Assembly: GCF_018502385.1 (NCBI RefSeq)
Contig: NZ_CP075523.1
Location: 2,108,001 to 2,172,000 of the forward strand
Length of the DNA: 64,000 bases
Reading direction: 5' to 3'
Source of the DNA: Synechococcus sp. LA31
GTDB taxonomy: Bacteria; Cyanobacteriota; Cyanobacteriia; PCC-6307; Cyanobiaceae
In this document: positions 8,018 through 10,553 of the stretch, piece by piece
How the letters are laid out: every line of letters starts with the position of its first letter
Position numbering within the stretch: the stretch's first letter is position 1
Translations under genes and position numbers: made by a program
Notes under the pieces: model-generated
The model's database searches: none
What the model was told of the DNA's origin: nothing
What the model saw: the letters and a program-made list of their open reading frames with translations, nothing else

Positions 8018-8665
8018 TCAACGAACGTTCTGCTGATCCAGCCAAGCCCGGCGCAACAGGGCGTTCACGGCGGCCCCCACCAATCCGGCCCCGCCACGGC
8101 TGCCCTCCAGGCGGATCTGAGGTAGGCCACTCTCAGCCAGATGGCGCTTGCTCTCCGCCACCCCCACAAAGCCCACAGGCATGCCGACCACCAGCGCCGG
8201 CGGCCTGCAGCGTCCGGCCGTCACCTGCTCCAGCAACAGCTCGAGAGCCGTGGGTGCACTGCCAATCAGCACCACAGCCCGGTGGTGCTCGTGCAAAGCC
8301 CGCTCCATCCCCACCGCTGCCCTGGTGCTGCCAGCAGGGGCCTGGGCAGGGGCCCAATCCAGCACGCTGCGCACACTGTTGCCAAACGTGCGCCGCGCCA
8401 TCGGTGCCACCGCCGCGGCCGCCATGGCGGTATCGGTGAGGATCGCAGCACCCGCTGCCAGAGCCTGGAGCCCCGCCTGGCAGGCGCCTTCCGACCAACA
8501 CACATCCGCCACCAGGCTCAGATCACCGCTGCTGTGGATCAACCGCAACAGCACCTCCTGCTCCAAAAGGGGTAACGAGGCAAGCTCAAAGCCGTTTGCA
8601 GCCTGCGGATCGGCCAAGGCAGCACGGATCAAGCGAATGCTCTCCGTGAAGATCGGATGATCCAA
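8018..8665 (-). CDS. cobH: Precorrin-8X methylmutase
   Basis: A 215-residue CobH/CbiC enzyme that moves the C11 methyl of precorrin-8X to C12, giving hydrogenobyrinate or its cobalt form in corrin ring synthesis. The family proton-transfer histidine is His44 in RLIHSSGD. Other signatures are AILTDTAMAAAAV, VLIGSAPTALELLLE, PALVVGMPVGFVGVAESK and SRGGAGLVGAAVNALL. Length is normal. No other corrin genes are in the window. It is divergent from the Phd-PIN gene. Confidence 0.96.
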   Translation of the reverse strand: MDHPIFTESIRLIRAALADPQAANGFELASLPLLEQEVLLRLIHSSGDLSLVADVCWSEGACQAGLQALAAGAAILTDTAMAAAAVAPMARRTFGNSVRSVLDWAPAQAPAGSTRAAVGMERALHEHHRAVVLIGSAPTALELLLEQVTAGRCRPPALVVGMPVGFVGVAESKRHLAESGLPQIRLEGSRGGAGLVGAAVNALLRRAWLDQQNVR

Positions 8666-8750: not shown

Positions 8751-8770
8751 GTACTCCGTACAGTCTGTAC
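8751..8770. promoter_or_regulatory. Candidate operator: three GTAC half-sites
   Basis: Three copies of GTAC occur in 20 bp (starting at 8751, 8758 and 8767). The last two form a perfect 6-bp inverted repeat, GTACAG-T-CTGTAC (8758-8770). The element lies 18 bases before the ATG of the Phd-PIN gene, where a Phd-type DNA-binding domain would be expected to bind its own promoter. Half-site spacings of 3 and 5 bases do not fit the cyanobacterial LexA box. Autoregulation is an inference from position only. Confidence 0.45.
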
Positions 8771-8787
8771 AGCAATTGGCATCACAC

Positions 8788-9531
8788 ATGGCCACCCCAA
8801 GCGTCGCGGCGTCTCCGCTTGGGGTGGAAGAAGCCCGGCGGCGGCTCCCCGAGCTGCTCGAGCGGGCGGCAGGCGGTGAGCAGTTCGTGATCCAACGCCA
8901 CAAAAAGCCGATGGCGGCCCTGATGCCCTTGGGGGGCCAGTCGCCCACGGATCCCCTGCAACGGCAACGGCAGATCCAAAGCCTGATGAGCCTGCAGGGC
9001 AGCGGGCGCAACACCTGGGATCCCAACCAACGCCATCCGGCCACGCCAGACCCTCGAGCTCCAGCGATCAGCGCGCAGCCCAGCGACCATTTCCGCCCCA
9101 ACCAGCTGGTGCAGGGCAGCCGCATCGCCCTGGATGGCTCTGCCCTGGTGGCCTTCCTCGCAGATGCCAAAGGCACCGGCACCTATTTGCAGCCCCTGAT
9201 GCAGGGCATCGCCCAGGGCACCTGGCAAGGCGTGATCAGCAGCGTGAGCCTGGCGCGGGTGATGGAGGGGCCCCTGGCGCAGGGGGATGAGCTGCTGGCG
9301 CAGCGGTATGCCACCGCATTCACCAACCCGCAGCAATGGCTGCAGCTGCCTGCCGATGGGACCTTGGTGGTCGCCGCAGCGCGGCTTCAGCGCCAGGAAC
9401 CCCAACTCGATGAGATCCGAGCCATCGAACTGGCCACGGCGATTGCCGCCGAAGCCACCGTGCTGATCACCGATCACCCTGCCCTCGCCCAAACTGGGCA
9501 ACACCCCGTGCTCAGCGCCCGACGGATCTGA
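8788..9531 (+). CDS. Single-chain Phd/YefM-like antitoxin and PIN-domain fusion protein
   Basis: A 247-residue protein from ATG 8788. Residues about 10-48 read as a Phd/YefM antitoxin DNA-binding domain (GVEEARRRLPELLERAAGGE, then FVIQRHKKPMAALMPL). Residues about 50-110 are a Gln/Pro-rich linker. Residues 112-247 read as a PIN ribonuclease domain, with Asp116 (IALDGSALVAFL), Glu160 (LARVME) and Asp229 (VLITDH) at expected acidic positions. The usual Asp of the DAxxLATA segment appears to be Arg211 (EIRAIELATA), so nuclease activity may be weakened. Antitoxin and toxin types are normally separate genes. The gene lies between cobH (divergent) and holA (same strand, 20 bp gap). Cellular role unknown. 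Confidence 0.75.
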   Translation: MATPSVAASPLGVEEARRRLPELLERAAGGEQFVIQRHKKPMAALMPLGGQSPTDPLQRQRQIQSLMSLQGSGRNTWDPNQRHPATPDPRAPAISAQPSDHFRPNQLVQGSRIALDGSALVAFLADAKGTGTYLQPLMQGIAQGTWQGVISSVSLARVMEGPLAQGDELLAQRYATAFTNPQQWLQLPADGTLVVAAARLQRQEPQLDEIRAIELATAIAAEATVLITDHPALAQTGQHPVLSARRI

Positions 9532-9551: not shown

Positions 9552-10553
9552 GTGCCGATCCATCTGCTCTGGGGCGACGACGAAGCGGCCCGCACGCGGG
9601 CGGTGGAGACGTTGATCAGCCACCACACCGATCCGGCCTGGCAGAGCATCAACCTGGCCCGGCTCGATGGCAACGAAGCGGGCCAGGCCGCTCAGGCCCT
9701 GGGGGAGGCCCGCACGCCGCCCTTCGGGGGAGGGGATCGGGTGGTGGTGTTGCAGCGCAGCCCCTTCTGCAACCAGTGCCCGGCGGAGCTGGCGGAGCAA
9801 CTGGAGGCAGCCCTGCCCCTGATCCCCGCCAGCTGCCACCTGCTGCTGGTGAACAGCGGCAAGCCCGATGCTCGCCTGCGCACCACCAAAGCCCTGCAGA
9901 AGCTGGTGAAGGCGGGCGAAGCGCGCGAGCAGAGCTTCCAGCTGCCGGCGGTGTGGGATGGCGCCGGCCAGATCGACCTGGTGCAGCGCACGGCCCGGGA
10001 GCTGGGGCTGCAGCTGGAACCCGCCGCCGCCGAAGCCCTCAGCGACGCCATCGGCAGCGACAGTGCCCGACTGGCCAGCGAACTGGAGAAGCTGGCCCTC
10101 TACGTGGGGGCAGAGACAGGCAGCCAGGCCCTCCAACCACCGATCACCGCTGCGGCCGTGGCTGCCCTCGTGGGCAGCCAGGCCACCAATGCCCTGCAGG
10201 TGGGTGACGCCCTGCTCGCGGGCAACCCCGCCGAAGCCGTGGCGCTGGTGGATGCCCTGCTGGCCGCCAACGAACCGGCACTGCGCATCGTGGCCACCCT
10301 CTGCGGGCAGATCCGCGGCTGGTTGTGGGTGAGCCTGCTGGATCAGCAAGGCGATAACGATGTCAACGCCATCGCCAAAGCCGCCGGCATCGGCAACCCC
10401 AAACGCATCTATGTGATGCGCAAACAGATCCGCGGCCGCAAACCCGCGCGCTTTCTGGCGCTGCTGCGCCAGCTGCTGGAGGTAGAAGCCGCCCTTAAGC
10501 GCGGCGGCAATCCAGGCGATGCCTTCCGCGATGGTTTCCTGCTCACGAGCTGA
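9552..10553 (+). CDS. holA: DNA polymerase III subunit delta
   Basis: A 333-residue HolA, the clamp-loader subunit that opens the beta clamp (DnaN, also in this window). It has the degenerate AAA+-like start MPIHLLWGDDEAARTRAVE, the SCHLLLVNSGKPDARLRTTK strand-loop, LQLEPAAAEALSDAIGSD with ARLASELEKLALY, and a C-terminal region ending RQLLEVEAALKRGGNPGDAF. Start is GTG 9552, about 20 bp after the Phd-PIN stop, so the two may be co-transcribed. Length is typical. Confidence 0.93.
   Translation: MPIHLLWGDDEAARTRAVETLISHHTDPAWQSINLARLDGNEAGQAAQALGEARTPPFGGGDRVVVLQRSPFCNQCPAELAEQLEAALPLIPASCHLLLVNSGKPDARLRTTKALQKLVKAGEAREQSFQLPAVWDGAGQIDLVQRTARELGLQLEPAAAEALSDAIGSDSARLASELEKLALYVGAETGSQALQPPITAAAVAALVGSQATNALQVGDALLAGNPAEAVALVDALLAANEPALRIVATLCGQIRGWLWVSLLDQQGDNDVNAIAKAAGIGNPKRIYVMRKQIRGRKPARFLALLRQLLEVEAALKRGGNPGDAFRDGFLLTS

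Follow-up and report, generated by a model that had tools for sequence, protein, structure and literature searches.

Has a former addiction module gained control over an essential replication gene? The question is raised by a gene of Synechococcus sp. LA31 that joins an antitoxin-type and a toxin-type domain in one chain and lies directly upstream of holA. It occupies positions 8788 to 9531 of the plus strand, stop codon included, of the window (the whole stretch of 64,000 nucleotides that was analysed) and encodes 247 amino acids; the call is supported by the open reading frame, by fused orthologues (27 distinct sequences) and by purifying selection. The ATG at 8788 starts the intact frame in the ORF listing of the window. 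A longer GTG frame from 8707 would enclose the conserved operator described below, and because the orthologues also begin 3' of that operator, 8788 is the better start. A frameshift or assembly artefact is ruled out by fused frames in all 27 distinct sequences, which come from many assemblies.

Domain Architecture

The first-pass annotation, made from the letters of the DNA, had read the protein as a Phd antitoxin domain and a PIN ribonuclease domain in one chain, and both structural and profile evidence bear this out. The Phd/YefM DNA-binding domain spans residues 10-50 (8815 to 8937, plus strand). PF02604 matches the window protein with E = 1.3e-6 and 28.5 bits in a Pfam search, slightly below the cut-off of 29.8 bits, and with 30.3 bits, above the cut-off, in the whole-genome scan; it is present at the N terminus of 18/18 orthologues (best E = 3.5e-9). 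An AlphaFold2 model of the fusion has a mean pLDDT of 82.6. In this model residues 7-49 resemble the Phd domain of Mycobacterium tuberculosis VapB46 (6jqy; rmsd 1.4 over 43 residues), and a Foldseek/VIA comparison of the N-terminal part with VapB46 gives an rmsd of 1.0 over 39 alignment columns.

The PIN domain spans residues 107-247 (9106 to 9528, plus strand). The profile search that had been proposed as a check succeeds for the N-terminal domain, but the Pfam search of the window protein itself returns no PIN match; PF01850 matches 11 of the 18 orthologues (best E = 1.1e-6). The PIN part of the model (pLDDT ∼94) adopts a VapC-type fold, matching VapC toxins with VIA Z scores of 10-13 over 120-130 residues, and the closest figure is that for VapC15 (4chg; Z 13.3, 123 residues aligned, rmsd 2.0). 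A PDB sequence search with the PIN alignment profile found nothing; the PIN relation is seen in the fold and in the Pfam matches of the orthologues. A PADLOC search also found nothing.

An Unfused Pair at the Same Site

The annotation had further held that the two domains come from different toxin families, a view that does not survive comparison. Phd-PIN pairs are routine (PMC4963859, which lists three Phd/YefM-PIN pairs for Synechocystis 6803), and an unfused form of the present gene exists in a related genome, G375. The LA31 genome itself carries a conventional adjacent Phd antitoxin and PIN toxin pair (L055/L063, G000:C1:2056415-2057052), whose PIN motif reads LDTHAL...DPFDRLLAAQA.

G375 has two separate genes, followed by holA, at the same cbiC-holA site. 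Its antitoxin has 86 residues, with a Phd domain and a VapB-like tail ending LLALRGSGSGCWDQATGSSDAADVVHKLRSEWD (LRGSGSGCW...KLRSEWD). Its toxin is a 147-residue PIN protein with the four canonical acids D..E..D..D (in IDTAPL, TLAELL, FPDALQ and THDRDF). Pfam assigns PhdYeFM_antitox and PIN to the pair, the toxin matching PF01850 with E = 7.9e-16, and the element ACGTACAGTCTGTACGT in the promoter of the pair contains the same core, GTACAGTCTGTAC, as the window. A midpoint-rooted PIN tree groups the 28 fused rows in a single clade (support 96/94) and places the G375 toxin, itself a long branch, outside it beside free toxins. The gene departs from the two-gene layout of type II VapBC in being one ORF in 27 distinct sequences and separate only in G375. 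Its common descent with a VapBC pair is indicated by the G375 locus and operator and by the PIN tree, and the fusion is read as a former VapBC because its unfused homologues occupy this site and share the operator.

The simplest history would be insertion of a VapBC pair between cbiC and holA, one fusion and several losses. A poorly resolved HolA tree requires 5-7 label changes, and the module may have been transferred between lineages. Independent acquisition of the G375 pair at the same place is less likely, because the operator is common to both forms. The opposite direction, with the G375 pair arising by fission of a fused gene, is disfavoured by the canonical acids that G375 keeps in common with free toxins.

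Outside the family the matches are free PIN toxins only. Ten such toxins were examined (L081-L090); each is preceded by a separate antitoxin-like gene of ∼70 residues (71 amino acids) without a Pfam match, the tail of which, ELEGLGKEIWNGLDAQEYVNQERASW, resembles that of the G375 Phd antitoxin. This suggests that different DNA-binding heads have been swapped onto a common toxin-binding tail.

Fixed Locus and Purifying Selection

The distribution in cyanobacteria, which the annotation had marked for checking, is broad within the family, one of freshwater cyanobacteria, and the position is constant. Fused orthologues, ∼46-86% identical, occur in at least four genera: in the majority of sampled members of its own genus (nearest named relatives, Vulcanococcus) and in further genera, with named records from Cyanobium and Synechococcus. 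At 26/26 loci examined, cbiC and holA flank the gene or what remains of it. In the window these neighbours are cbiC/cobH (precorrin-8X methylmutase; 8018 to 8665, minus strand), divergent and upstream, and holA (DNA polymerase III delta; 9552 to 10553, plus strand), directly downstream as the annotation had stated; they are assigned by synteny together with PF02570 (E = 5e-54) and PF06144/PF21694, respectively. A mobile element is ruled out by this invariant locus and by a search of plasmid and phage records that found no match to the fusion at E 1e-3.

The gene is not universal. In 14 family genomes without it, cbiC directly faces holA across ∼10-110 bp, and three copies are decayed (HJ21-Hayes, ATX 6A2 and G029). 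The copy of Synechococcus sp. HJ21-Hayes (L049, 2800-3320) has suffered three separate deletions relative to its sister locus L042: one of 39 bp takes just the operator, the other two take most of the Phd/linker region and the PIN core, and holA is intact.

Where the gene is present, substitution rates in close pairs indicate that it is under purifying selection: dN/dS is 0.00-0.09 for the Phd domain and 0.07-0.32 for the PIN domain, compared with 0.06-0.14 for holA. The PIN domain has 20 invariant residues. Because the whole domain is under purifying selection, the fused PIN does something.

A Putative Operator and the Link to holA

An operator-like palindrome, TCCGTACAGTCTGTACAGC, lies upstream of the gene at 8755 to 8773, with the core GTACAGTCTGTAC at 8758-8770; it is a candidate operator conserved upstream of orthologues, where its consensus is TCTGTACAG-N-CTGTACAGA. 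The palindrome TCTGTACAGNCTGTACAGA, with at least 9/10 core bases, precedes 28/31 family members, and none of 578 control windows from the same loci reaches that score. Of the remaining three, one has a copy with 8/10 core bases (two mismatches), and in the other two a GTAC-N5-GTAC site lies at a greater distance upstream. Across the 2.75-Mb genome there are two exact copies of the core, one here and one inside an ORF; the copy here is the sole intergenic one, and no second intergenic exact site that would point to a wider regulon was found in that genome.

Escherichia coli YefM binds TGTACA cores (PMC7730913) and contacts DNA via R10 and R31 (PMC4803016). The palindrome of the fusion gene matches the YefM core, with TGTACA-like cores spaced 9 bp apart here versus 12 bp for YefM. 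R17 and R37 of the fusion, invariant in 18 orthologues, are presumably the equivalents of YefM R10 and R31. The palindrome is a putative operator, to which the Phd domain may bind in regulating its own gene. A scan for consensus promoters near it found none. The cyanobacterial LexA box has a 4-bp spacer and is expected to recur at SOS genes; a LexA reading of the site is ruled out by its 5-bp spacer and by the two occurrences of the exact core, one of them inside an ORF.

The surroundings of the operator vary among orthologous loci. In L042 it forms the core of a 37-bp perfect palindrome upstream of phd-pin, CTCCTGAATTCTGTACAG-G-CTGTACAGAATTCAGGAG; in L035 and L048 the outer arms differ from these and are still largely palindromic, and the window copy has no extended arms. 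L037 and L038 have several tandem GTAC units at 9-bp spacing upstream of phd-pin, an arrangement that might accommodate two or more repressor dimers.

On the other side, the distance from fusion to holA ranges from an overlap to +34 nt in all intact orthologues, and in many the fusion stop overlaps the holA start (TGATG or 16 nt). No terminator-like site was found between the two genes, and co-transcription is likely. Strains without the fusion gene retain holA, and any control of holA would be dispensable, because several relatives have lost the gene or carry it in decayed form. In L012, L013 and L015 the fusion overlaps the first 16 nt of holA, placing the coding sequence of its C terminus inside holA.

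A Retained Antitoxin-Tail-Like Segment

The region between the domains had been described as a Gln/Pro linker of ∼60 residues. A free stretch of this kind is present, but it is confined to residues 81-104 (9028 to 9099, plus strand), which have low pLDDT, are mostly disordered and show the highest dN/dS within the protein (mostly 0.2-1.2). Residues 56-78 (8953 to 9021, plus strand) are instead ordered, conserved and antitoxin-tail-like, comprising a helix and the sequence LQGSGRNTW, which aligns with LRGSGSGCW of the unfused G375 antitoxin. The motif L-x-G-S-G-x-x-x-W is conserved, with L69, G71 and S72 invariant in 18 orthologues. In VapB-type antitoxins the corresponding part of the tail binds the toxin. 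By this resemblance, part of the supposed linker is a relic of the toxin-binding tail of the antitoxin.

Modeling supports the same assignment. In the full-length model pLDDT is 92 for residues 61-70 and 83 for residues 71-80; when residues 1-100 are folded alone these values fall to 68 and 54, and the Phd part is barely altered. The drop without the PIN domain indicates that, in the model, residues 61-80 dock on PIN in the manner of antitoxin tails.

Displaced Acids in the PIN Domain

Residue counts were made across the 27 distinct fused sequences and compared with the unfused G375 toxin and five free toxins; the fused PINs align to the G375 toxin without gaps up to and including motif II and again from motif III onward. 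D116 (9133 to 9135, plus strand, as are all the following codons) is the sole canonical catalytic acid still in place: Asp in 25 fused sequences, Glu in one and a gap in one, and Asp in the unfused and free toxins. The annotation had named D116, E160, Arg211/E214 and D229 as the residues to place. It was right about D116 and about Arg211, which this alignment puts at the third canonical acidic position, but E160, E214 and D229 lie off the canonical positions, and the loss at R157 and the D229/H230 shift had escaped it.

The canonical Glu of motif II falls at R157 (9256 to 9258). This position is Glu in the unfused G375 toxin and in 5/5 free toxins and in only 3/27 fused sequences, where R, G, H, Q, T, D and E all occur. 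Three residues further on, E160 (9265 to 9267) is a new acid: Glu in 22 fused sequences, Asp in 3 and Gln in 2, and Thr or Val in the unfused and free toxins. Both sequences with Q160 retain the canonical E157. The third canonical Asp, present in the unfused and free toxins, corresponds to R211 (9418 to 9420), where none of the 27 fused sequences has an acid and which is the second most variable of 132 columns. Again three residues past the lost acid, E214 (9427 to 9429) is Glu in 27/27 fused sequences and Gln in the unfused and free toxins. The fourth canonical Asp is at position 230 of the pair D229-H230 (9472 to 9477); it is Asp in the unfused and free toxins, and the fused sequences have Asp at 229 (21) or at 230 (8).

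Among the 132 columns the entropy ranks of the canonical positions are 104 (157), 131 (211) and 93 (230). In every fused sequence checked, acids occupy 214, at least one of the pair 157/160 and at least one of the pair 229/230. Against the four canonical acids of VapC at their usual positions, the window protein thus shows E to R157, D to R211 and D to H230. As judged from the alignment, the canonical metal site is dismantled in the fused PIN; the active site may be shifted rather than dead.

Function of the Fused Protein

The sequences support the two domains, their fusion and common origin, the lost catalytic positions, selection on PIN, conservation of the operator and tight linkage to holA. 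From these we infer DNA binding, repression, co-repression by PIN, absence of RNase activity and any effect on holA. The reading we favor, and consider fairly probable, is that the gene is a domesticated VapBC derivative, an autorepressor with a non-catalytic PIN domain that is probably co-transcribed with holA. A VapBC-type pair, Phd antitoxin followed by PIN toxin, stands at cbiC-holA in this family, and its two genes have fused in the LA31 lineage. The Phd domain would dimerize on the TCTGTACAGNCTGTACAGA palindrome and repress its own transcript, which probably carries holA too. The PIN domain, held by the retained LQGSGRNTW segment, would not act as an RNase, given its dismantled canonical metal site, but would serve as a built-in co-repressor or dimerization module. 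The annotation had left two options, a self-inhibited toxin or a DNA-binding regulator with a disabled nuclease, and the evidence favors the regulator.

A self-inhibited toxin that is still active is the more serious of the alternatives, and doubtful. It supposes that the quartet has been re-registered (D116, E157 to E160, D211 to E214 and D230 to D229) and still binds metal, with LQGSGRNTW blocking the site in cis until proteolytic cutting of the exposed linker, or a ligand, frees PIN. The invariance of E214, the acid at 160 in 25/27 sequences, the retention of E157 by the Q160 pair and an Asp at 229 or 230 in all sequences are as expected of such a site. So are a neutralizer-like segment that the model orders only when PIN is present and a flexible, fast-evolving linker, and single-chain toxin-antitoxin proteins with a cis antitoxin exist (EzeT, PMC4826407). 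Yet three of the four canonical positions are unconserved, one of them invariantly Asp in the free toxins that were examined. E214 could have a structural role, and catalysis would have had to survive shifts of three residues for two acids and of one residue for another in a single domain, a demanding path. A composite, which we consider improbable, would be a single-chain VapBC whose PIN site has moved (two acids by one helical turn and one by a residue), active but cis-locked, and also repressing the transcript of holA, a replication clamp-loader gene.

Two further possibilities concern what selection has kept. The gene could be a single-chain relic in the course of loss, its fusion and active-site changes degenerative and its persistence due to inertia, as the three decayed copies and many empty sites might imply. 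This is quite improbable and already disfavored by the selection data: both domains have dN/dS values in close pairs similar to those of holA, and the operator and invariant residues are conserved across at least four genera. Alternatively, PIN could tune repression by binding RNA or DNA or by sensing a metabolite, with holA or cbiC and not the gene alone as target. Selection on PIN without a canonical site, the location between divergent cbiC and holA, and the overlap of up to 16 nt with the holA start are compatible with this very improbable scheme, but the genome has no second intergenic operator site for a wider regulon.

Relation to Known Systems and Significance

The closest known systems are type II VapBC modules with Phd/YefM antitoxins (M. 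tuberculosis VapB46; Synechocystis ssl1004/sll0525), with which the fusion shares the Phd/YefM domain, the toxin-binding tail motif, the PIN fold, antitoxin-first order and an operator-like palindrome upstream. It differs in being one polypeptide, in the replacement of the antitoxin end (KLRSEWD in G375) by a free linker, and in lacking canonical acids at three of four positions. In function the fusion probably resembles the repressor part of a type II toxin-antitoxin system; it is not a standard VapBC.

Among single-chain systems, EzeT of E. coli (zeta-type, PMC4826407) likewise combines antitoxin and toxin functions with the antitoxin part N-terminal and cis neutralization possible, whereas it has a zeta kinase fold and is an active toxin. 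The Phd-RelE fusion yb_293189 of Ralstonia eutropha, as far as it is described where it is cited in PMC4826407, also joins Phd to a toxin thought to be inactive, but that toxin is RelE and the protein is truncated in both parts; here PIN retains its full fold and is conserved. The HicAB fusion Slr1999 is another cyanobacterial toxin-antitoxin protein fused from a two-gene operon, reported from Synechocystis 6803 only (PMC4963859), whereas the Phd-PIN fusion keeps a constant location in four genera or more. The literature searched holds no description of a Phd-PIN fusion, which does not prove that none exists. We know of no Phd DNA-binding domain in EzeT.

Toxin-antitoxin pairs are thought to undergo occasional domestication. 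To our knowledge, a single locus rarely preserves the unfused pair and the fused gene along with the loss of catalytic residues, decayed copies and empty sites. If the improbable combination of a cis-locked active PIN with holA repression were true, one event, linker cleavage or ligand binding, would release an RNase and at the same time alter holA expression. At the cbiC-holA locus, a few constructs would suffice to test the transition of a selfish pair into a host regulator.
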